Assembly (NCBI GenBank): GCA_016212295.1
Contig: JACRGO010000138.1
Location: 1-29,856 of the forward strand
Length of the DNA stretch: 29,856 nucleotides
Reading direction: 5' to 3'
DNA from: Nitrospinota bacterium
GTDB lineage: Bacteria; Nitrospinota; Nitrospinia; JACRGO01
Part shown: in pieces, positions 7,259 to 20,690 of the stretch
How positions within the stretch are numbered: position 1 is the stretch's first letter
How the letters are laid out: each line of letters opens with the position of its first letter
Notes under the pieces: model-generated
Database searches by the model: none
What the model saw: only the letters and a program-made list of their open reading frames with translations
Told to the model about the DNA's origin: nothing
Translations under genes and position numbers: made by a program

Positions 7259-7462
7259 ATTCAGGAAATTGTCTGATGCCTGATTTTTCAGTCAGGAAAT
7301 TCGGAATCCGAAGCACGAATTCAAGTCTTCTATGTTTATCTTCATCGGGCGAATATTGGCTTTATCAAAAATACGAAACAAGGGCAAAAACACTGATTTC
7401 CAAATGACAAAAACCTAAATTTTCCTCTGCGGACTTTGCGTCTTTGCGGTCAATTGAAAAAA
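7259..7462. other. Spacer between cheY and cas6
   Basis: No gene is seen. A short repetitive phrase, CTCTGCGGACTTTGCG followed by TCTTTGCGGT, lies at 7431-7450, just before the cas6 start. Phrases like this are intergenic filler in many environmental genomes, so the open frame crossing it (from 7436) is unlikely to be coding. Confidence 0.4.
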
Positions 7463-8491
7463 ATGATTCTTCCTTTTAAATCAGGCGTTTTTCAGTTCCG
7501 GCTTGCGGCCCGTGACCCATTGTCCCTCCCCCCTTACAAAGGCTCCACTCTCCGTGGCGGCTTCGGGACCGCCTTTAAGAAGGTGGTTTGCGCCGTCAGA
7601 ACCAAAGACTGCCTACAGTGCTTACTCAAGGAAAAATGCGTCTACTCCTATGTCTTTGAAACCCCGCCTCCAAAAGATTCGGAAATCCTCCGCAAATACG
7701 AGAAGGCCCCGCACCCTTTCATTATCGAGCCTCCCCTGGAGGACAAAACGGAATACAAGCCAGGCGATTCCCTGGACTTTCACCTTGTCCTCATAGGCAA
7801 GGCCCTGGACTACCTGCCTTACTTCATTTATACCTTTGAGGAATTGGGGACCATTGGGATCGGAAAAGGGAGGGGGAAGTTTGAATTGCTGGAGGTCCGG
7901 CACGGGGACCGGACCATTTATCAGTCAACCGACAAAAAACTTCAATCCATACCCGACTCAGATTTTTCCTCTTCAAGTGTTTTTAACGGCCAAAACGGTT
8001 CCGGCGATTTCCACGGCCTTGACAACTCCAACGGAGGCCCCTCCCTGTCCTTAAACTTCCTTACCCCCACGCGGATGATTGTTGACGGCAAACTCGTGAC
8101 AGAGCCGGATTTTCATCACCTGGCAAGAACTCTCCTCCGCCGGATTTCCACTCTTTCCTATTTCCATTGCGATAAAAGGCTGGACCTGGATTTCAAGGGC
8201 CTGATCGAAAAAGCGAAAAAGGTGAAAACCCTGGACAGGAAAACAACATGGCACGACTGGGAAAGATATTCCGCCCGGCAGGATACAAAGATGAAAATGG
8301 GCGGGTTCGTGGGGAAAATAACCTTCGAGGGGGAGTTGGGAGAGTTTATGAAGTTTATAGAGCTTGGCGAGAGGCTGCATGTGGGCAAAGGGACGAGTTT
8401 CGGGTTGGGAAAGTATATTATTACGTTCAGAAAATTTTCCTTTAACCGCTCAACGCCGATTTTATTTCAAGCGGAAAAGGCAAATTTCTGA
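7463..8491 (+). CDS. cas6: CRISPR pre-crRNA endoribonuclease Cas6
   Basis: Cas6 cuts CRISPR transcripts inside each repeat to release guides with an 8-nt 5' handle. The product, about 342 aa from the ATG at 7463, belongs to the Cas6 group with a Cys-rich insert: KGSTLRGGFGTAFKK, then CLQCLLKEKC and YVFETPPP. The second ferredoxin-like half follows (LNFLTPTRMIVDG, LLRRISTLSYFHC). The C-terminal Gly-rich loop is GERLHVGKGTSFGLGKY. The frame also opens at a TTG at 7436, but that part is repetitive intergenic sequence; neither start has a good ribosome binding site. After GLGKY, where such proteins usually end, about 24 extra residues are encoded by a near-palindrome at 8414-8504, so the tail looks like an insertion or a read-through hairpin. 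Confidence 0.9.
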   Translation: MILPFKSGVFQFRLAARDPLSLPPYKGSTLRGGFGTAFKKVVCAVRTKDCLQCLLKEKCVYSYVFETPPPKDSEILRKYEKAPHPFIIEPPLEDKTEYKPGDSLDFHLVLIGKALDYLPYFIYTFEELGTIGIGKGRGKFELLEVRHGDRTIYQSTDKKLQSIPDSDFSSSSVFNGQNGSGDFHGLDNSNGGPSLSLNFLTPTRMIVDGKLVTEPDFHHLARTLLRRISTLSYFHCDKRLDLDFKGLIEKAKKVKTLDRKTTWHDWERYSARQDTKMKMGGFVGKITFEGELGEFMKFIELGERLHVGKGTSFGLGKYIITFRKFSFNRSTPILFQAEKANF

Positions 8492-9181: not shown

Positions 9182-11872
9182 ATGAAAATGACCTCAGACC
9201 AAAAAAAGGAATACCAAACCGTCATCCTGGCGGAGTTACTGCATGATGTGGGGAAATTTCTGCGGCGGGGAAATGGAAAATACAAAGGATCTCACCCGGC
9301 TGCCTCCGCGAAATTTATTGAAAATTTTCACGACAAGTTAAAGAACGATTCCCTTTATGACATTGAGCTTGTAAAAACCCTGGCCCTTCACCACCATTCC
9401 ATAAAAAAGAAAGTCTTTGGGTGCCCGTTACTTAAGGATAAGCCACAAACGGAAAAAGATCATTTTTGGCAATTGCTGAAAATCGTAAAGGTCGCGGATA
9501 TTTATTCCTGCATGGAGCGGGACCATTTTCAAAACAGAAACAGCATGGTTGATAACAAAAGAATGCCTCTGGATTCTGTTTTTTCAAGCATTCATCTGGA
9601 ACCTGAAGAACCCTTGGAGAAAAAACCAGGAAGATACCATGCTTGCCGCATTGACCCCTTAACTTCCTTCCCCGATCCCTCAGTTGATTTTTCCTCCTTG
9701 GGCGAAAAGGAGGTTCCTGGCCTTATCGCGAATTTCGAACGCCATATCCCGGACTTTTCCCGGCTGGAACAATTTGACGATGTGTTAACCGCCTGGCTCA
9801 ACATCCTGGAGCCCTTCACCTGGGCCATTCCCAGCGACACGAGGTATGGACATTCCGACATCTCCCTTTTTGATCATCTCCGCTCTTCGGCGGCCATGGC
9901 GGCCTGTCTGCACAAACGCCACCTGGCGAATATGGAGACCGGAGAAAACTTTAACCGTAAATATGAATTCATGTTCATCGCCGGGGATTTTTCCGGCATT
10001 CAGGATTACATATTCCACGTCACCAACCTGGGATCAGGCGGCGCGGCAAAACGTCTCCGCGCCCGGTCTTTTTTTGTTTCCCTTTTCTCCGAGGCCGTCA
10101 TCCATAAGATCATTCACGCATTAGACATTCCCCTTTTATGCAATGTTTTTTCCGCCGGAGGGAAATTCTTGATCCTCGCCCCTGATATTGACGAGACTGG
10201 AAAATTACTTCAGAGCGTCAAGGAATCAATTGAGAACGAAATCCACTCCACCTATTTCAACCAATTTTCATTTCTCATGTCCTGGATGCGCATGGAAGAG
10301 TTTAAAGCGAATTTTAAAGTTTATAAATTCTTCAAGGTCGCGGACGAGATGTTCCACAGACTGGAAACCGAGAAGACTCAAAAATACCGCAATGTCTTAT
10401 TGGACCAGGAAAAAGGCGCATGGCAGGAAGAGTCTTTCAAGGCAGGAAAGCTTTATGCGGGTTATAAGGAGACAGGAGATTGTAAAATATGCGGAAGAGG
10501 TCCGGCGACGCCTGAAATTTATAATGACCGGAAAGGGTTGGACGAGGATGAAGAAAGAGACACCTGTTTTTTGTGTTACCGGGACAAGTTTCTTTTGGGC
10601 CAGACTCTGCCGCGTATCAAATTTGTAGCCTTCGGCAGGGGCAAGTTAGCGGATGAAGAGAAAAAGAAAAAAATTGTATTGTTCAACGGAACTGAGGATA
10701 GCAGTCTCGATTATTATGCGGACCTGCTGGAGCGGCCTGAAAGCTCGCGGGATTGTTACCTCATCCACGCATTGGAGGAGACCAAATCGGATTGGAATGT
10801 CTTTGGCGGTAAGCCTTTTTTGAGGAAGTATTACGCCAATCATGTCCCAACGGTAACGGAAGACAACAACAAAACCACAATGTGTTTTGAGGATATCGCC
10901 AAATTGTCCAGATGGGAAAAGAAAGAAAACGGGAAATCAATAATATTCGGCGCGGAACTCCTTGGGGTCCTGAAGGTGGACATGGACAATCTTGGCTTCA
11001 TCTTCAGCAAAGGTTTTGAAAACCCGTCAAAGCTCGAAAAAAAGAACGAATCAGGGAAACCGCTCCGGGAAATTGACCGGAAGACCGCTTCCCGGTTTCT
11101 GACCATGTCAAGAATGATCGAGCTCTTCTTTTCCGGTTGGATGAAAGAGATCATGGACAAAAATCGGGAAGAAGAAATCATTTCGGAACTGAAAAGGAGC
11201 GGGAAGATAGATGTTGACCGCTTTGCAAAATACATAGGAGAAAGCCCGGTTGATTTTAAGAATATTTACACGGTTTATTCCAGCGGAGACGATATGGTCC
11301 TGGTTGGTCCTTGGGAGACCATGATTGTTTTTTCCATTTTCCTGAATATGCGATTCAGGAAGTTTACCAGCAACAACAAGCACATTACCCTGTCCGCCGG
11401 GCTTTCCTTTGTGAAGCCGAAACACCCCATCGCCTCGGCCATCCGCCAGGCCGAGGAACTTTTGGAAAAGTCCAAGAGAGAGGGAAAGGACAGGATAACC
11501 TTTTTCGGGACCACGGTGGAGTGGGAGAAACTCCCGGACTTGGTGAATTTCTTTTTGTTTCTGAATGAGAAGTTGATGGACAAGGATTCAAAAATCAAGA
11601 CCGGCTTTGCCCACAGGCTTTTTGAATACCACCGAATGGCATTAAGTTTTTTTGAAGAAGGAAAAATAGAGGGCTTAAAGTACCTATCCGCCCTGAGTTA
11701 CGATATGGGAAGGAATTTGATCAAGCGCGATGCACAAGGGAAAATAATTAGAGGAATGGAGGAATATATCGCTCTTCAGCCTTTAATAAATGATTCACCC
11801 AATAAAATTTCTCTGATTTCTAAAGTGAAAATACCTTTATTTTGGGCGCTTTATAGAAATAGGAGAGCATAA
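9182..11872 (+). CDS. cas10: Type III-A effector subunit Cas10/Csm1
   Basis: Cas10 is the large subunit of the Csm complex. When target RNA binds, it cuts single-stranded DNA (HD domain) and makes cyclic oligoadenylates (palm domain). The 896-aa product has an N-terminal HD domain (H21-D22 in LLHDVGKF, with LALHHHS and KVADIYS). The first palm-like domain shows DFSGIQDYIF and SAGGKF at 324-329. A zinc-finger-like pair follows (C434/C437 and C462/C465), then the second palm (VDMDNLG near 600). The catalytic motif is S701-G702-D703-D704, so the first Gly of the usual GGDD is Ser while both Asp remain. Length is normal. The ATG at 9182 has no clear ribosome binding site; 9188 is an alternative. 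The stop overlaps the next ATG by one base (TAATG). The last 150 bases are more AT-rich than the rest of the gene. Confidence 0.96.
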   Translation: MKMTSDQKKEYQTVILAELLHDVGKFLRRGNGKYKGSHPAASAKFIENFHDKLKNDSLYDIELVKTLALHHHSIKKKVFGCPLLKDKPQTEKDHFWQLLKIVKVADIYSCMERDHFQNRNSMVDNKRMPLDSVFSSIHLEPEEPLEKKPGRYHACRIDPLTSFPDPSVDFSSLGEKEVPGLIANFERHIPDFSRLEQFDDVLTAWLNILEPFTWAIPSDTRYGHSDISLFDHLRSSAAMAACLHKRHLANMETGENFNRKYEFMFIAGDFSGIQDYIFHVTNLGSGGAAKRLRARSFFVSLFSEAVIHKIIHALDIPLLCNVFSAGGKFLILAPDIDETGKLLQSVKESIENEIHSTYFNQFSFLMSWMRMEEFKANFKVYKFFKVADEMFHRLETEKTQKYRNVLLDQEKGAWQEESFKAGKLYAGYKETGDCKICGRGPATPEIYNDRKGLDEDEERDTCFLCYRDKFLLGQTLPRIKFVAFGRGKLADEEKKKKIVLFNGTEDSSLDYYADLLERPESSRDCYLIHALEETKSDWNVFGGKPFLRKYYANHVPTVTEDNNKTTMCFEDIAKLSRWEKKENGKSIIFGAELLGVLKVDMDNLGFIFSKGFENPSKLEKKNESGKPLREIDRKTASRFLTMSRMIELFFSGWMKEIMDKNREEEIISELKRSGKIDVDRFAKYIGESPVDFKNIYTVYSSGDDMVLVGPWETMIVFSIFLNMRFRKFTSNNKHITLSAGLSFVKPKHPIASAIRQAEELLEKSKREGKDRITFFGTTVEWEKLPDLVNFFLFLNEKLMDKDSKIKTGFAHRLFEYHRMALSFFEEGKIEGLKYLSALSYDMGRNLIKRDAQGKIIRGMEEYIALQPLINDSPNKISLISKVKIPLFWALYRNRRA

Positions 11873-12633
11873 TGAATGTTTTGATAATTTCTGATAATTT
11901 TGAAAAAGAATATTTGCCTCAAGAAAAACAAGAAGATTTTGATTTTATAAAATGGAAGGAAGAAAAAATCAAACCTTCTTTGAATGAATACGACATTTTT
12001 GTCATTGATCTTTGCTTTTCAGAAAACAGAGATAGTTTGAATTTCATTAAAGACGTCTATTTAAGCTTAGAACAGAAACTAAACCGAGAATTAATTCAAG
12101 AGGGTTTAGTACTCATAATAATTTCTGGATATGAAAATAAAAAAATTTTCGACTATGAGAATATTGAAGAAGAAGGGGATAATAAAAACCAAGAGGGGTC
12201 TTCAAAATATGGCCCAGAAATGATTGACAAGGTAAAGCTTACGTATGATTTTTTGAAAAGAATCGACGTTGAGATTTATAACAGAATTGAATTTATTGTC
12301 GGCAAAAGGTTTGCCAAACCATCTGAAACAGTATTTTCAGATTACTTTAATCATGTCAGTAAATTTTTTATGACTTTAAATTTGCACCTTAGCCAGGATG
12401 ATAATTTTGAAAAAATCTCCAAAACTGCTGGCTTTGGAAGTGCTTGGGTTTCTTTTGGGAAAAAAACCGGCAAAGGTTTTTTATTAATTTTCCCCGGATA
12501 TGATTTAGACAAAAAAAAGGATTCCTTCATCGCCATATCAAAAATTTTAGATATTTATTATGAGAAACAGCAAAAAATTATATTTGAAAAGGAAAACGAT
12601 TCAGGAAGTAAAACACAACCGGCACCAGTCTAA
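11872..12633 (+). CDS. Unknown alpha/beta protein embedded in the csm operon
   Basis: I do not recognise this 253-aa protein. Its start overlaps the cas10 stop (TAATG), after AGGAG at 11861-11865, so it is translated with cas10, and csm2 follows 61 bp later. The N-terminal part alternates strands and helices: MNVLIISDNF, YDIFVIDLCF and GLVLIIISGYE look like three parallel core strands of a receiver, Rossmann or glutamine-amidotransferase-like fold. A charged linker follows (about 97-117), then a helical middle. Near the C-terminus lies a Gly-rich strand (TGKGFLLIFPGYD) and a tail rich in Lys and Glu. No HEPN (R-x4-H), PD-(D/E)xK nuclease or transmembrane motif is visible. It is clearly more AT-rich and Lys/Asn-rich than the cas genes around it, which suggests separate acquisition. 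Its position makes it a candidate accessory or effector of type III immunity; this is inference. Confidence 0.85.
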   Translation: MNVLIISDNFEKEYLPQEKQEDFDFIKWKEEKIKPSLNEYDIFVIDLCFSENRDSLNFIKDVYLSLEQKLNRELIQEGLVLIIISGYENKKIFDYENIEEEGDNKNQEGSSKYGPEMIDKVKLTYDFLKRIDVEIYNRIEFIVGKRFAKPSETVFSDYFNHVSKFFMTLNLHLSQDDNFEKISKTAGFGSAWVSFGKKTGKGFLLIFPGYDLDKKKDSFIAISKILDIYYEKQQKIIFEKENDSGSKTQPAPV

Positions 12634-12694: not shown

Positions 12695-13126
12695 ATGCCA
12701 ACTTTTTTTTATCAAGACGATTCAAAAAAAGAAATTAAGGAGGAATTCCTAACCAACAAAGCCAAATCCTGGGCGGAAAACTTTATTTCTCCAAAACAAC
12801 CAAAGGAGAGATGGGAAAGAAACCCAAAATTGACCTCCGCCCAATTGCGGCGGTTCCATATCGAGGCAAAAACCCTGGAGGAACGGGTCCGCAATATGGA
12901 AAACCCGGAAAAAGAGTTCCCTGGACTCAGGCCCCTCGTAAAAATGCTGAAATCCAAGGTGGCCTATGCCTGCCCCAATACTGGAAGAGACAGAAAAGTC
13001 CCGGATGAATTTCGGAAATATATAGAGGAGATGGTGGACCACATTGAGGACCACCGGGACTTCATGGCCTTTGCCTTATGCTTTGAGGCTGTGGTTGGAT
13101 TCTTTTACGGACAAGGAGGGAGATAA
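12695..13126 (+). CDS. csm2: Type III-A small subunit Csm2
   Basis: Csm2 is the small helical subunit that lines the inner filament of the Csm effector beside Csm3. The 143-aa product is all-helical in character. It has the family pattern of an N-terminal variable part, then LTSAQLRRFHIEAKTLE, a central PLVKMLKSKVAYA segment and the C-terminal HRDFMAFALCFEAVVGFFYG helix. The gene has a perfect AGGAGG ribosome binding site 8-9 bases before the ATG and sits 1 bp before csm3. Csm2 is weakly conserved in sequence, so the call leans partly on order: cas10-(unknown)-csm2-csm3-csm4-csm5. Confidence 0.92.
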   Translation: MPTFFYQDDSKKEIKEEFLTNKAKSWAENFISPKQPKERWERNPKLTSAQLRRFHIEAKTLEERVRNMENPEKEFPGLRPLVKMLKSKVAYACPNTGRDRKVPDEFRKYIEEMVDHIEDHRDFMAFALCFEAVVGFFYGQGGR

Positions 13127-13127
13127 G

Positions 13128-13865
13128 ATGAAACTCTTAGGATATAAAAAAATCAATGGAATTATTGAAGTGGTTACCGGACTTCACATCGGCGGGAGCA
13201 CGACAATCATTGAAATCGGCGGCAAGGACAACCCGGTTATAAAGAACCCCATCACCAAGGAACCATACATACCAGGGTCTTCCATCAAGGGAAAGATGCG
13301 CTCTCTTTTGGAATGGAAACTTGGAAAAATCGACGCAGACCCCAATAGCAGGGAGCGGGGAGAAGTTCATAAATGCACGGACGATAAATGCCCCATCTGT
13401 GTCATCTTCGGCACGTCCGCCGATGAGGCCGCCCTCGGTCCCACTCGCCTTGTGGTCCGTGACTCAGTTTTGAATGATGATTATAAGAAAAAACAAAAAT
13501 TAAAAAACCCCAACTGGACCGCCTTGGATCTCCTGGAAGATAAGTACGAAAACACCCTCAACCGCATAACCGCCAGGGCCAACCCCAGGAATTTCGAGCG
13601 CGTGGTCGCAGGCGCGGAATTTTCCTTTGCCATGACCTACAAGGTCTTTGAAAACGGGAATGGCGATAATTTGGATGTAGGGCTTTTCCAACACGTTTTT
13701 GATGGCCTAAAGCTCGTGGAAAGCGATGCCTTGGGCGGAGCAGGCAGCCGGGGCTGCGGACAGGTCAAATTTAAGATAAGGGGCGCTGATGGAGAGCTTA
13801 AAGGTTTGGAAGCCATCGATATAAAAGAAGATTTCCCAACAGAAGGAGTTCATGACGCAAAATGA
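13128..13865 (+). CDS. csm3: Type III-A backbone RNase Csm3
   Basis: Csm3 is the repeated backbone subunit of the Csm complex and cuts bound target RNA at 6-nt intervals. The product, 245 aa from the ATG at 13128, shows the RAMP signature: VVTGLHIGGS, then KDNPVIKNP with D34 as the expected catalytic Asp, PYIPGSSIKGKMRSLLEW, and a Cys cluster (KCTDDKCPICVIFG) that may bind zinc. The Gly-rich C-terminal loop is DALGGAGSRGCGQVKF. The frame is open from 13044, but GGAGGG lies 7 bases before the 13128 ATG, which is one base after the csm2 stop. The retained Asp indicates active target-RNA cleavage. The gene overlaps csm4 by 4 bases (ATGA). Confidence 0.96.
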   Translation: MKLLGYKKINGIIEVVTGLHIGGSTTIIEIGGKDNPVIKNPITKEPYIPGSSIKGKMRSLLEWKLGKIDADPNSRERGEVHKCTDDKCPICVIFGTSADEAALGPTRLVVRDSVLNDDYKKKQKLKNPNWTALDLLEDKYENTLNRITARANPRNFERVVAGAEFSFAMTYKVFENGNGDNLDVGLFQHVFDGLKLVESDALGGAGSRGCGQVKFKIRGADGELKGLEAIDIKEDFPTEGVHDAK

Positions 13866-14866
13866 CGGATTGCCAAGGTTTTACTATCGAAATTGACTTG
13901 AGGTCCTCCTTGGGCACGCCCTTCCAATCGGACACCTTTTTCGGCCACCTCTGCTGGTCTCTCCGTTTTCTTTGGGGAGAGGAAAAACTTCAGGAATTTC
14001 TTAGCCGTTATGAAAACAGGGAGTCCCCTCCCTTGCTGCTGAGCGACGGCTTTCCCGTGGGTTATCTCCCCAAGCCGGTCCTGCCTCCCGTTAGCCCGAC
14101 GGATCTGGATCGAATCGTAGGAAAGGAAAACAGAATTCACAACTCGTTCATGATCAAGGCCATAAAAAAAGCGGTCCTTATGCGAAGAGACATTTTTTTT
14201 GAACTTCAACAAGACGCCATTACCCCTGAAAAACTTTTCAAGGCCATGAAAAGCGCATATAAGAATGAAGAGGGAACGGAAGGACCAGGAATCAAGGAGT
14301 CCATTCAGCATAACACCATCGACAGGATCACAGGGTCGGTGAGGGATGGAGGACTCTTTATTCATGAGGATACCTTTTTTGAACCTGAATCTTCCCGTTT
14401 TGAAGTTTACCTGAAGACCAACTGTTTTTCCATGCGAGAGCTTGAGAAAATATTTGAGTACATGGGAGAGGGAGGTTTTGGGCGGGACAAATCCACAGGC
14501 AAGGGGCATTTTACTTTCCAAATCCGGGAGGGAATAAATTTGCCGGAAACGGAAAATCCCAACGCCTTCATGACCCTTTCTTCTTACATTCCCCATGCGG
14601 AGGCGCCCACCAGAGGCCATTACCGGACCCTTCATAAATATGGAAAACTGGGAGGGACTTATGCCCAGGGTTCGCCGGAAGCACATAAGAATCCCTTTAA
14701 GAAGCCGCTCCTCATGTTCGCGGCTGGCTCCACCTTTTATGATCCCGACTTTAAAAGCGGCAAAATATATGGCTCGCTCCTGAGAGAGGTGCATATAAAT
14801 AAAGATATTCGTCATTACGCCTACGCCTTTCCCGTGGGTATAAGGCTGGAGGATAAGGGTTGTTAA
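13862..14866 (+). CDS. csm4: Type III-A subunit Csm4
   Basis: Csm4 binds the crRNA 5' handle and holds Cas10 at the foot of the Csm complex. The 334-aa product opens with a RAMP ferredoxin-like strand, DLRSSLGTPFQSDTFFGHLC, continues with the FPVGYLPKPVLPP segment typical of the family, and has a Gly-rich loop YMGEGGFGRDKSTGKGHF in the second half. The C-terminus carries HYAYAFPVGIRL. Length is usual for Csm4. It starts inside the csm3 stop (ATGA) and ends one base before the csm5 ATG, so the three genes are tightly coupled. It has base composition like csm3 and csm5, unlike the AT-rich gene after cas10. Confidence 0.94.
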   Translation: MTDCQGFTIEIDLRSSLGTPFQSDTFFGHLCWSLRFLWGEEKLQEFLSRYENRESPPLLLSDGFPVGYLPKPVLPPVSPTDLDRIVGKENRIHNSFMIKAIKKAVLMRRDIFFELQQDAITPEKLFKAMKSAYKNEEGTEGPGIKESIQHNTIDRITGSVRDGGLFIHEDTFFEPESSRFEVYLKTNCFSMRELEKIFEYMGEGGFGRDKSTGKGHFTFQIREGINLPETENPNAFMTLSSYIPHAEAPTRGHYRTLHKYGKLGGTYAQGSPEAHKNPFKKPLLMFAAGSTFYDPDFKSGKIYGSLLREVHINKDIRHYAYAFPVGIRLEDKGC

Positions 14867-14867
14867 A

Positions 14868-15908
14868 ATGAAACATTACACCTTAAAATTTGAAATCCTC
14901 TCCCCTCTCCATATCGGCGCTGGAGAGGAAATGGACCCCATGAGCTACATCATAAAGGGAAACCGCTTGTACCGCGTCTCCTTTGAAAAATTTGTTTCCA
15001 GGATGGATGAATCCCAAAGGTCGGAGTTCGAGTCAGTGATCGCAAAAGGCAATCTTGTGGACTTGCGAAGGCACGTCATAAAAAAACTGGACCTTGAAAG
15101 CGAAGCCCTTTACTCCGTGGAAGCGTCGATGCAAATCAGCAAACTCTATGACTCCAAAATTGGAGACATGGAGAATCAGTTGCTGATCCACCAGTTCCTG
15201 AGGACCGAGGACGCAGCCTTCCCCCTCATTCCCGGCAGTTCCCTGAAAGGGGCCATCCGCACCGCGTTGGTCAGCGAAATGGCCGGAAGGAGCGGACTTC
15301 CCAAGCCCAGGGAACCCAGGGAGGAATACGAATTCGAGTTCAAGGTCCTGGGCTGCAAGGACGCCAAGGAAGACCCCTTCCGTGGAGTGAAGATAAGGGA
15401 CAAAACCCTCTCCCATGATGCCGCCATAGTGCGGGAAATACGGAACATGGCCAAGGGCAAGGGAAGAGGATTGCAACCCAACAGCATTCAGATCATCGCC
15501 GAGACCACGCATTCCAAAATCACCGGTAAGGAGGTCCACTTTGAAACAGACCTGCTTATTGACGACGGCCTCTTCTCCACCCGATTTCTTGGCAAGACCA
15601 TCACCATTGACCAGATAGTGAAATCTTGCACCGATTTTTACATGGACAAGATGGAAATGGAGCACGACAAATTTTATAAAGGAAGCGCGGCGGAAAGCAC
15701 GTCCACCTTTCTCTTGAATACCGAATTCGATGATGATTCCTTTCCTCTTCGCCTGGGTCGCTTCTCCGGGGTGGAATCCGTCACCCTGGATGAATACCGC
15801 AACCCAAAACCGCCCGGAAAAACCGGAAAATGGGGGACCTCCAAAAACTTGGCGGAAGAAAAATATCCCATGGGATGGGTGAAGGTCACGGTTGAATGTA
15901 AGGATTAG
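14868..15908 (+). CDS. csm5: Type III-A subunit Csm5
   Basis: Csm5 caps the 3' end of the crRNA in the Csm complex and helps recruit trimming nucleases. The 346-aa product has the family opening YTLKFEILSPLHIGAGEEMD, a RAMP core with FPLIPGSSLKGAIRTAL, and a C-terminal part with PLRLGRFSGVESVTLDEYR. Length is normal. The start lies one base after the csm4 stop. It is the last gene of the interference operon; a perfect 18-bp inverted repeat (15923-15940 with 15971-15988) follows within 15 bp of its stop and may end transcription. Confidence 0.95.
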   Translation: MKHYTLKFEILSPLHIGAGEEMDPMSYIIKGNRLYRVSFEKFVSRMDESQRSEFESVIAKGNLVDLRRHVIKKLDLESEALYSVEASMQISKLYDSKIGDMENQLLIHQFLRTEDAAFPLIPGSSLKGAIRTALVSEMAGRSGLPKPREPREEYEFEFKVLGCKDAKEDPFRGVKIRDKTLSHDAAIVREIRNMAKGKGRGLQPNSIQIIAETTHSKITGKEVHFETDLLIDDGLFSTRFLGKTITIDQIVKSCTDFYMDKMEMEHDKFYKGSAAESTSTFLLNTEFDDDSFPLRLGRFSGVESVTLDEYRNPKPPGKTGKWGTSKNLAEEKYPMGWVKVTVECKD

Positions 15909-15988: not shown

Positions 15989-16017
15989 ACCTTGAATCAA
16001 AGCCGATAGGCTTTGGA

Positions 16018-16104
16018 GAATAAAGGATTGAGACGGCAAACTCTCTGGCAAACACTCCGGCAAACCCTCCGGTTGGAATGGCTGACTTGATGAATAAAGG
16101 ATTG
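16018..16104 (+). CRISPR. Decayed CRISPR array (one spacer) after csm5
   Basis: The 3' part of a repeat (16018-16034, ending GGATTGAGAC), a 37-base spacer (16035-16071), then a repeat at 16072-16104 whose first 33 bases equal the repeat of the main array before it diverges (GATTGGAAAG instead of GATTGCGAC). Orientation matches the main array. The first repeat is cut at its 5' side by heptad filler, and no leader remains. The spacer itself is three near copies of a 12-mer (GGCAAACTCTCT, GGCAAACACTCC, GGCAAACCCTCC). Confidence 0.85.
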
Positions 16105-16360
16105 GAAAGGCCGTGAGACGTGTCCGTTTACCGTGTCCGGGAAAAGATAAAAAATCGTGGAAGGAAAAAACGGACACGGAAAACGGTCACGGAAAACGTT
16201 TTTTTATCGACTTGATAAACATGCAAAGCGAAGTGAGCCTCACTGTTTTTGTGAGAAGAGAGAAGGGGAAAGAAAAAAGAGAAAGGAAAAAACGTGGGAA
16301 GACTTTGTTTCTTTTGCATGCCCGCCGAGCGGCGGTGAGGACTGGATGGGGCCGGAAAAC

Positions 16361-17057: not shown

Positions 17058-17375
17058 ATGGAGTATCTTAGAAAAAAAGAGATTGATAATCCCTTGGGAA
17101 GCCTGAATGCCTTTCTAAAAAAGGCGGATGAGCCCACGCTTGTGGAGGCGTCCGCTGAAATCAATTTCTTATCCCACATGGGGATTGCGAAAGATGATAG
17201 GGTTGTTTTCTTGAGCAGTGACACGGATGAGGGAGAAATGGCGGCAAATTCCCTGGCAAGGAAATTAGAGAATATTAAAAAAATCGCCCATGCCCTGCAC
17301 GGCAAGGCAGCAAAGCTCGTTTACCAGAGTCCGGCGGCCGGAGACGTGACGGTCTTTGACCATTCTCCATATTAA
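17058..17375 (+). CDS. Short CARF-like protein, probably truncated
   Basis: The 105-aa product holds a stretch that resembles the CARF sensor domain of the APE2256/Csm6-like family: EASAEINFLSHMGIAKDD, then RVVFLSSDTDEGEMAANSLA. In that family the segment continues a Rossmann fold that binds cyclic oligoadenylate. Here the usual first strand (TxGTSLL) is absent, the frame ends after only about 40 further residues, and no HEPN or nuclease domain follows. A GGAGG lies 3 bases before the ATG. The gene sits between csm5 and cas1, a usual site for a type III CARF effector. It may be the stump of a lost effector, or a small stand-alone cOA binder. The family link rests on one motif region, read by eye. 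Confidence 0.6.
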   Translation: MEYLRKKEIDNPLGSLNAFLKKADEPTLVEASAEINFLSHMGIAKDDRVVFLSSDTDEGEMAANSLARKLENIKKIAHALHGKAAKLVYQSPAAGDVTVFDHSPY

Positions 17376-17687: not shown

Positions 17688-18692
17688 ATGCCTAATCTTT
17701 ATTTAACCGAACAAGGCGCCGTGCTCCGCAAGACCGGCGACCGCTTGATCGTGGAAAAGGACGGGGAGGTCCTGCTGGACGTCCAATGCCACAAGATCGA
17801 GGCGGTGCTCATCTTCGGCAATGTCCAGTTCACCACCCAGGCGGTGAAGGAGCTTTTCGAGCACGGGATCGAGATGGCCCTCCTGACGAAAAACGGAAGG
17901 CTCGTCGGCCAGATCACCTCCCCCTTCACCAAGAACATCGAGCTTCGGATCGCCCAGTTCGAGAGGCACAGGGACGAGGATTTCAAGTTGGAATTCTCCC
18001 TCTCCCTTGTGGCGGGAAAGGTCCGGAATGCCCTCCAGGTTTTGAAGACCTTTGCCTGCAACCATGCGGAAACAGACCTGACGGAGGAAATCCAGGGATT
18101 GGAATCCTCGCTGAGGACCCTGGAAAACGGAAAGATCGCTGCGGAAGGTTTGAACGGCACGGAAGGAAACGCGGCCAGGGCCTACTTCGCTGGATTCGGG
18201 AAGATGGTCCGGAACGGGTTCGGTTTCGAGGGGCGGAAGAAACGTCCACCCACGGACCCGGTGAACGCCCTGCTCTCCCTGGGGTACACCATGATCTTCA
18301 ACGAGATTTCCTCCCTCCTGGACGGTCTGGGCTTTGATCCCTATCTGGGCTATTACCACAAACCGGAATACGGCCGGGCCTCGCTTGCCTCGGATCTGAT
18401 GGAGGAGTTCCGCGCTCCCATCGTGGACCGCCTGACCCTGAGATTGGTCAATAACCGGATGCTGGCGGAGAAAGATTTTTACAATAACCCGAAGGGAGAG
18501 GGAATCTACCTGACCCGTGAGGCGTTGAAGAGGTATTTCGCGGAGTACGAGGAATTCATCGGACGGGAGTTCACCCACCCGGACACCAAGGAAAAGACCT
18601 CTTTCCGAAAGTGTTTCCGAATCCAGGCGGAAAGGCTCGCCTCCGCCATCAAGGGGGAGAAGAAATACCTTCCATTCCGATTGGAGAAATGA
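17688..18692 (+). CDS. cas1: CRISPR adaptation integrase Cas1
   Basis: Cas1, with Cas2, inserts new spacers at the leader end of the array. The 334-aa product has the N-terminal beta domain (MPNLYLTEQGAVLRKTGDRL and VLIFGNVQFTTQAVKELFEH) and a helical catalytic domain. The metal ligands are E159 in GTEGNAARAYF, H224 in GYYHKPEYGR and the Glu pair at 239-240 in SDLMEEFRAPIVDRL. Length is normal and all expected residues are present. The ATG follows directly on an inverted heptad tract, with no good ribosome binding site. It is separated from cas2 by 182 bp holding a MITE-like insertion; elsewhere the two genes are usually adjacent. Confidence 0.97.
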   Translation: MPNLYLTEQGAVLRKTGDRLIVEKDGEVLLDVQCHKIEAVLIFGNVQFTTQAVKELFEHGIEMALLTKNGRLVGQITSPFTKNIELRIAQFERHRDEDFKLEFSLSLVAGKVRNALQVLKTFACNHAETDLTEEIQGLESSLRTLENGKIAAEGLNGTEGNAARAYFAGFGKMVRNGFGFEGRKKRPPTDPVNALLSLGYTMIFNEISSLLDGLGFDPYLGYYHKPEYGRASLASDLMEEFRAPIVDRLTLRLVNNRMLAEKDFYNNPKGEGIYLTREALKRYFAEYEEFIGREFTHPDTKEKTSFRKCFRIQAERLASAIKGEKKYLPFRLEK

Positions 18693-18874: not shown

Positions 18875-19150
18875 ATGCTTTATCTAATCTCCTACGATAT
18901 CCCGGACACGCCCAGGCGGACCAAGGTCGCGAAGATATTAAAGGACTTCGGCGACCGGGTCCAGTACAGCGTGTTCGAGTGTCTCCTGGATGGGGAACTC
19001 CTGGAAAAAATGCGCTCCAGATTGGAAAAGGTTTTGGTGGAGGCGGAGGACAGTCTGAGGATTTACGCCCTGTGCGGCAAGTGCGAAAAAGGAGTCACGG
19101 TGATTGGCCAGGGAGAGGTCTCAAAAGAAGAGAAATATTATATTTTATAA
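18875..19150 (+). CDS. cas2: CRISPR adaptation protein Cas2
   Basis: Cas2 forms the dimeric core of the Cas1-Cas2 spacer integrase. The 91-aa product is a single ferredoxin-like domain with the family opening MLYLISYDIPDTPRRTKVAK (D8), the DRVQYSVFECLLD strand, and the C-terminal LRIYALCGKCEKGVTVIG segment. Length is normal. The ribosome binding site is weak (AAAGATGAGAT just upstream). The gene lies between the MITE-like copy 1 and the leader of the main array, on the same strand as cas1. Confidence 0.96.
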   Translation: MLYLISYDIPDTPRRTKVAKILKDFGDRVQYSVFECLLDGELLEKMRSRLEKVLVEAEDSLRIYALCGKCEKGVTVIGQGEVSKEEKYYIL

Positions 19151-19349: not shown

Positions 19350-19758
19350 GTTGGAATGGCTGACTTGATGAATAAAGGATTGCGACCGGACCCTCGCTCA
19401 CCGTGCCGACGTCACTTCCCATCGGTTGGAATGGCTGACTTGATGAATAAAGGATTGCGACGTTTCAACTCTTTCACGGCCTCCTCGAAAGTCTTTTTTG
19501 TTGGAATGGCTGACTTGATGAATAAAGGATTGCGACCTTGTTGTTTCCTCTCTTTCGATAAGCCGGGAACATTGTTGGAATGGCTGACTTGATGAATAAA
19601 GGATTGCGACCCAAGCCTGGGAAGAGTTTGACTTGACTGTTGAAGAAGTTGGAATGGCTGACTTGATGAATAAAGGATTGCGACAAGAAAAGTGCGGATG
19701 TCAGATAAATTCCGATGATGAGTTGGAATGGCTGACTTGATGAATAAAGGATTGCGAC
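19350..19758 (+). CRISPR. Main CRISPR array: 6 repeats, 5 spacers
   Basis: Six identical 37-bp repeats (starting GTTGGAATGGCTGACTTG and ending GGATTGCGAC) lie at 19350-19386, 19425-19461, 19500-19536, 19574-19610, 19648-19684 and 19722-19758. The spacers are 38, 38, 37, 37 and 37 bp. The last 8 bases, ATTGCGAC, match the usual Cas6-made handle, so transcription is on the plus strand away from cas2. The distal repeat is not degenerate and is followed at once by a different repeat family. That suggests the original end of the array was lost. Confidence 0.98.
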
Positions 19759-19905: not shown

Positions 19906-20028
19906 AACCCGCTTCGCGGAGGGAAAGATAAAGTGAAGAGTGAAAGGAAAAGACTTGAAAGTCCGGCTGCGCAATAAGCTCAACTTTCACTTTGGCTTTA
20001 TCTTTATCTCCGGCCTTGCCGGGCCGAC
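19906..20028. repeat. Hairpin unit B (no ORF)
   Basis: Second tandem unit, 123 bp. It is nearly identical to unit A but lacks the doubled right arm. It has the same start, the same loop (AAGTCCGGCTGCGCAATAAG region) and the same end (GGCCTTGCCGGGCCGAC). Confidence 0.8.
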
Positions 20029-20523
20029 GGCCCGCTTCGCGGAGGGAAAGATAAAGGGAGGAGTGAAAGGATATGAAGGATTTCAGAGACCTGATAGTCT
20101 GGCAAAAGGCGGTATTGTTGTTTGAACAATGCGTTGCTGATACGAAAAATTTTCCCAAGACCGAAGCCGCGAGAGTGATAATAAACCAGATATTAAGAAG
20201 CGTTGGTTCCACAAGCGCGAATATTGCCGAGGGATTTGGAAGGAGAAAGGGGAAAGAATATGAGCACTATCTTTATATCGCTCGGGGATCAATTAACGAG
20301 AGTCTGGATTGGTATGAAAAATTAAAGAGGTTAAAGTATATTGATGAGGCATCATTTTCGGAAAGGCAGGGAACGTGCAATGAGATCAGGGCCATGCTTA
20401 CAGCTATGATTGACAAGGTTCATGTATGATCTTTCACTTTGGCTTTATCTTTATCTCCCTGGCTGGCTTTATCTTTATCTCCCTGGCGGGCTTTATCTTT
20501 ATCTCCGGCCTTGCCGGGCTGAC
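20029..20523 (+). mobile_element. Hairpin unit C carrying the four-helix-bundle gene
   Basis: Same borders as units A and B, but a 357-bp gene takes the place of the loop. The right arm (CTTTATCTTTATCTCC) is repeated three times. A gene held in the loop of a long stem is the layout of 23S rRNA intervening sequences, seen here outside rRNA. Confidence 0.7.
20073..20429 (+). CDS. Four-helix-bundle protein (23S rRNA IVS-encoded type)
   Basis: The 118-aa product belongs to the S23/four-helix-bundle family first seen in intervening sequences of 23S rRNA genes and related to the Avd accessory proteins of diversity-generating retroelements. Recognisable parts are MKDFRDLIVWQKAV, then QILRSVGSTSANIAEGFGR, then YEHYLYIARGSINESLDWYE. 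Length is typical. The molecular role is not established; the family may bind nucleic acid. GAAAGG lies 5 bases before the ATG. The gene lies in the loop of unit C, just after the CRISPR array. No reverse transcriptase or template repeat is seen nearby, so a retroelement role is not supported here. Confidence 0.92.
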   Translation: MKDFRDLIVWQKAVLLFEQCVADTKNFPKTEAARVIINQILRSVGSTSANIAEGFGRRKGKEYEHYLYIARGSINESLDWYEKLKRLKYIDEASFSERQGTCNEIRAMLTAMIDKVHV

Positions 20524-20690
20524 GGCCCGCTTCGCGGAGGGAAAGATAAAGGGAGGAGTGAAAGGATATGAAGGATTTCAGAGACCTGATAGTCTGGCAA
20601 AAGGCGGTGGGATTGTTTGAGCAATGCGTTGCTGATACGAAAAATTTTCCCAAGACCGAAGCCGCGAGAGTGATAATAAACCAGATATAA
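20524..20690. repeat. Hairpin unit D (3' truncated)
   Basis: Fourth unit. It repeats the left border, the left arm and the first 120 or so bases of the four-helix-bundle gene, then breaks off into unrelated sequence. The right arm is missing. Confidence 0.8.
20568..20690 (+). pseudogene. Truncated copy of the four-helix-bundle gene
   Basis: The first 40 codons match the intact gene at 20073 with only a few changes (Leu-Leu becomes Gly-Leu near residue 15; a silent change follows). After INQI the similarity ends and a TAA follows. It keeps helix 1 and part of helix 2 and cannot form the four-helix fold. The near identity to the intact copy points to a recent tandem duplication. Confidence 0.88.

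Follow-up and report, generated by a model that had tools for sequence, protein, structure and literature searches.

What kind of gene occupies the space between cas10 and csm2 in the type III-A CRISPR operon of a Nitrospinota contig (JACRGO010000138.1), and could it serve the Cas10 signalling pathway? The window (the whole stretch of DNA that was analysed, 29,856 nucleotides) carries, in order, cas6, cas10, the gene in question (here gene X), csm2, csm3, csm4, csm5, a CARF remnant, cas1, cas2 and a CRISPR array (Table 1). The final A of the cas10 stop TAA doubles as the first letter of the X start codon ATG, AGGAG lies shortly 5' of this start, and the frame is intact over 253 codons; ORF and operon assignments bear out the original prediction of a gene that starts in the cas10 stop and is wedged between cas10 and csm2. 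Searches of window X against the Pfam, PADLOC and NCBIfam profile libraries gave nothing below E 0.02, and no PDB sequence matched it. The protein, which had been said to resemble no known family by eye, was confirmed by these profile searches to match none, and a match to a housekeeping family, proposed beforehand as a possible refutation of a CRISPR role, was not found. Comparison with the closest homologue (L104) gave a pN of 0.31 against a pS of 0.89, which confirms that window X is a real gene.

Table 1. Features of the type III-A locus in the window (positions are those of the window).
Feature	Positions	Strand	Remarks
cas6	7436..8491	+	Pfam, PADLOC matches
cas10/csm1	9182..11872	+	TIGR02578, E 8.6e-155; HD domain intact, palm motif SGDD
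gene X	11872..12633	+	253 aa, ATG start; HEPN-less member of a cas10-linked two-domain family
csm2	12695..13126	+	Pfam, PADLOC, NCBIfam
csm3	13128..13865	+	Pfam, PADLOC, NCBIfam; ATG picked within longer TTG frame 13044-13865
csm4	13862..14866	+	Pfam, PADLOC, NCBIfam
csm5	14868..15908	+	Pfam, PADLOC, NCBIfam
CARF/Csx3 deletion remnant	17058..17375	+	CARF protein start joined to Csx3 ring nuclease end
cas1	17688..18692	+	PADLOC
cas2	18875..19150	+	PADLOC
CRISPR array	19350..19758	+	six repeats, ~37 nt each, GTTGGAATGGCTGACTTGATGAATAAAGGATTGCGAC

The slot is normally without an extra gene, as had been claimed. In all 65 of the other readable type III-A loci, csm2 alone lies between cas10 and csm3, and the cas10-csm3 gap measures 382-666 bp, compared with 1172-1701 bp in the window and the loci of its homologues; the closest outgroup cas10 (L039), too, has a csm2-like gene immediately 3' of it. 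Single-sequence searches with X returned nothing from viral contigs, genome contigs, plasmids or phages, and relatives were reached instead through Cas10 synteny: a Cas10 alignment was searched against the genome contigs of 84,980 species, and the region 3' of cas10 was read in the best 80 Cas10 loci. The best-preserved homologue (L017, 361 aa) and a longer one (L020, 413 aa) both lie directly 3' of cas10. A third (L100, 379 aa), from the same genome as L019, lies directly 5' of csm2 at a contig start, and a fourth (L104, genome G375), directly 3' of cas10, is ended by the contig end after 188 aa; the rest of it, sought in G375 through csm3, was not found. This last homologue is the closest to window X (51% amino acid identity over 178 residues), and the other three share 23-24% identity with it. 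The X family has five known members, including the window copy, of which one (L104) is incomplete.

In the Cas10 tree, the window, L017, L018, L019, L020 and L110 (the L104 contig) form one clade (SH-aLRT 100), and X is present in all five assessable members of that clade, namely those in which the region downstream of cas10 could be found; L018 and L035 were left out of the scoring because their contigs break within cas10. Each of the five homologues (5/5) belongs to a csm operon. Profile searches located the N-terminal domain of X in five genomes only among ~1,080 distinct genomes, always at the csm operon, and a scan of the ORFs of the fetched type III loci with X profiles yielded no N-terminal domain outside the five members. 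Both expectations attached to a CRISPR role were thereby borne out: placement beside cas10 recurs in unrelated genomes (labelled Nitrospirae, Deltaproteobacteria and others), and no homologue was found away from cas10 in those ~1,080 genomes. In our preferred reading, X is a member of an accessory family that is confined to one clade of type III-A systems, lies within the core operon and is translationally coupled to cas10. Two weak tblastn matches within the phylum turned out to be due to chance, one being a LysM/SLT protein (L002) and the other full of stops (L003).

The longer relatives of window X carry a second domain. The C-terminus of L017 X is a DUF4145 domain (PF13643; E 5.6e-14, 52.4 bits against a gathering cut-off of 23.1), a family placed in the HEPN superfamily (PMC3710099). 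The predicted structure of this C-terminus has HEPN matches at Z 10-14.5, among them the Csm6 HEPN (6tug) with Z 10.1. The motif RGFGNLAAH of L017 X corresponds to R-x7-H, the typical DUF4145 signature, and the strict Rx4-6H RNase motif is absent from this protein; the same R-x-x-G-N-x-A-A-H signature occurs in solo DUF4145 proteins (L105, L108). In L100 X the motif reads KKAGDTAAH, with K replacing R, and DUF4145 is matched at E 0.001, below the gathering score; in L020 X it has degenerated to LLFYNAALN, without the H. Window X ends at the domain boundary, csm2 follows 61 bp on, and no HEPN residues are present in any frame before csm2. The incomplete L104 X ends before the HEPN region. Every member thus retains the alpha/beta domain, whereas the HEPN domain is subject to decay or loss. 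Full-profile matches in five further genomes (G133, G174, G324, G342, G412) proved to cover the HEPN part only and represent DUF4145-type proteins without the N-terminal domain.

The statement that no HEPN motif is visible therefore holds for the window copy and fails for the family, in whose longer members a DUF4145 HEPN domain forms the C-terminus. Because the window copy lost this domain, it does not represent a HEPN-free family but derives from a protein with two domains. Judging from the motifs, catalysis may not be a conserved function of the family, since L017 has R-x7-H and the H or the whole domain has been lost in L020 and in the window.

X forms a GC-poor island (0.30, compared with 0.45-0.50), and its history differs from that of cas10. 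The X tree joins the window to L104 and L017 to L100, whereas the Cas10 tree joins L017 to the L104 contig (SH-aLRT 98), and the X alignment rejects a grouping of L017 with L104 (p-AU 2.3e-5). Because the two trees conflict, X seems to have been exchanged at the cas10-csm2 junction and to behave as an exchangeable cassette; a long-branch rate artefact is the less likely source of the conflict. A scan of the cas10 tail for recombination within that gene was not significant (permutation p 0.07), and we therefore claim only the discordance of X as a whole gene. Between the window and L104, cas10 (pN 0.28, pS 0.90) is under constraint nearly equal to that of X, a comparison that speaks of long-term constraint and not of the recent past because synonymous sites are saturated.

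The low GC content and the discordant gene tree could also be explained if X were a mere passenger, an unrelated gene of the abortive-infection or toxin-like sort that landed between cas10 and csm2 and acts outside CRISPR immunity, especially considering that other defence systems often contain DUF4145 HEPN domains (PMC3710099). A selfish passenger would be expected to move around, however, whereas X is confined to the cas10-csm2 junction, where all five assessable clade members have it, and was never found elsewhere in the ~1,080 genomes, the viral contigs, the phages or the plasmids. We regard such a passenger as quite improbable.

The N-terminal ~205 residues of X are predicted to form an alpha/beta, flavodoxin-like domain in models of low confidence. 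The best structure match of residues 1-208 is flavodoxin 5wid at Z 8.5, a score near background for such models, and from the AlphaFold model of window X (pLDDT 40) no usable fold match was obtained. The predicted secondary structure and the weak flavodoxin match together suggest a flavodoxin- or receiver-like alpha/beta fold, in line with the receiver-like fold among those proposed from the core strands. With flavodoxin- and receiver-like domains, X shares the predicted beta-alpha order and conserved S, D and G residues where strands end, but it lacks sequence similarity to them and has in addition a Gly-rich hairpin and an LPxY-like motif, C-terminal to strands 1-4 and near the domain end. 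Ten alignment columns are invariant across the five N-termini, and four of them, S7, W28, D46 and G86, are located where predicted strands 1 to 4 end on their C-terminal side, or beside these points, along an edge that, if the predicted topology is right, would be the usual ligand edge of such folds. For window, L017 and L020 X there is no PADLOC CARF match; hhalign of X against two small CARF alignments, whose profiles are shallow, gave probabilities of 0.1 and 1.2%, and no CARF protein is listed among the structures that match the N-terminal part. These comparisons give a CARF ancestry of the domain no support, though such an ancestry is possible.

Csm6 and Csx1 are CARF-HEPN ribonucleases of type III systems that are activated by cyclic oligoadenylate (cOA), and the plan of a Rossmann-like domain joined to a HEPN domain in a type III locus is already known from them. 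Full-length X resembles these proteins in its type III locus, in joining a predicted N-terminal Rossmann-like alpha/beta domain to a C-terminal HEPN domain and in the match of the L017 HEPN part to that of Csm6. It differs from them in that no CARF was detected in its N-terminal domain by PADLOC or profile comparison, in its position inside the core operon, in a HEPN domain of the DUF4145 family and, for the window copy, in the absence of HEPN altogether. With DUF4145 defence proteins, X shares the C-terminal domain of L017 and, weakly, of L100; unlike them, it is linked to type III CRISPR, its N-terminal partner is not in the fusions listed in PMC3710099, and the domain is absent from the window copy. 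In the literature searched, which excluded subscription journals and preprints, no description was found of this position between cas10 and csm2 or of a type III CRISPR-DUF4145 link of the X kind.

Published accounts assign type III sensors almost without exception to CARF and SAVED, and new messengers or sensors are expected at loci with an active Cas10 but without a known effector (PMC12669027; PMC11229360). The L017 locus fits this expectation. It is of type III-A, its Cas10 has intact HD and GGDD motifs, and X, a two-domain HEPN protein in the core operon, is its only candidate effector, since none of the scanned neighbour genes is a CARF or other known effector; the L017 genome also gave no match to one CARF/Csm6 model. 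L017 X is therefore a specific and testable candidate for a new type III sensor-effector. In a separate observation, csm4 of this locus appears to be split into two overlapping frames of 280 aa and 92 aa (L017 10882-11887; L102 10054-11059), which may reflect a sequencing error or a real frameshift.

We infer, with a probability of about 0.5, that full-length X is a Cas10-controlled sensor joined to a HEPN RNase effector, and that the window copy is a HEPN-less derivative of it. The slot of X, the single Cas10 clade, the DUF4145 domain of L017, the L017 locus, in which no other effector was detected, and the cas10-like constraint all support this reading. Target RNA would activate Cas10, and the alpha/beta domain of X would bind a signal, most likely a nucleotide made by Cas10, at the C-terminal edge of its beta-sheet (S7, W28, D46, G86). 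The signal-bound domain would then switch on the HEPN RNase of X, following the logic of Csm6/Csx1 with another sensor. Window X would be left with no more than the half that senses, binds or regulates, and it cannot itself cut RNA through a HEPN site because that domain has been lost. A more specific version, which we put forward only tentatively, is that the alpha/beta domain represents a new kind of sensor, distinct from CARF and SAVED, for a messenger that Cas10 makes and that may itself be new. This sensor would act through a DUF4145 HEPN RNase, the two would be exchanged together as a cassette between cas10 and csm2, and the HEPN-less copies would act as messenger sinks or regulators. 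The X family thus points to a helper of the Cas10 alarm system that has so far gone unrecognised.

The signal need not be diffusible, however. The alpha/beta domain could instead dock on Cas10 or Csm2 and regulate the complex, with the HEPN domain activated by contact rather than by a messenger. The place of X in the core operon with its translational coupling, an evolutionary rate like that of cas10 and an N-terminal domain that persists where HEPN has decayed or disappeared would all be consistent with such a contact partner, but typical Csm complexes work without X, as in the 65 loci above, and the exchange of X independently of Cas10 is awkward for an obligate subunit. We consider this the main alternative, though a rather doubtful one.

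For the window copy, the reading as a HEPN-less derivative of a sensor-effector has to be weighed against the state of its own locus. The palm motif of the window Cas10 is SGDD in place of GGDD, a form seen in 2 of the 84 Cas10s compared. In the 105-aa product of the frame between csm5 and cas1, residues 6-76 match CARF models and residues 76-104 match the last Csx3 positions, and the frame was also picked up by a Csm6/CARF model; it is a deletion chimera from which a CARF effector and a Csx3 ring nuclease have been removed. As this remnant is the sole CARF trace there, the claim that no intact effector exists nearby was right for the window locus. Together, the SGDD motif, the CARF/Csx3 deletion and the HEPN loss show a signalling arm that has eroded, and window X could accordingly be taken for a remnant with no present function, left as the cOA arm (cyclase motif, CARF effector, Csx3 and X HEPN) decays. 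Its 253-codon frame is nevertheless intact and ends cleanly at the domain boundary, and the excess of pS over pN speaks against decay, although such an average would hide a recent relaxation. Moreover, SGDD need not be inactive, because a diguanylate cyclase with an AGDEF site is active (PMC3974145); by analogy, the window Cas10 may still be active. A functionless remnant is thus unlikely in our estimation. As a natural HEPN-less derivative, window X allows the role of the N-terminal domain to be considered apart from RNA cleavage.

The window genome has another type III locus, III-D-like and on a different contig (G000 contig C195; L015, L118). It encodes a 749-aa fusion of Cas10 and Csm3 and a CARF protein of 495 aa that resembles an HD domain in its C-terminal half, and its csx10-like gene is spread over two frames that overlap. 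In three III-A loci (L022 8445-8993, L025 8448-9008 and L045 8525-9040), Csm2 has an N-terminal Cys-rich, zinc-ribbon-like extension (CxxC...CxxC). In the window, the interval from csm5 to the CARF remnant contains one intact and one degenerate CRISPR repeat (16013-16116), ~3.3 kb from the main array, as the trace of a second or displaced array. A 200-bp direct duplication (19994-20193 and 20489-20688, 97% identical) adjoins the main array, and shorter repeats related to it occur from 19699 onward.
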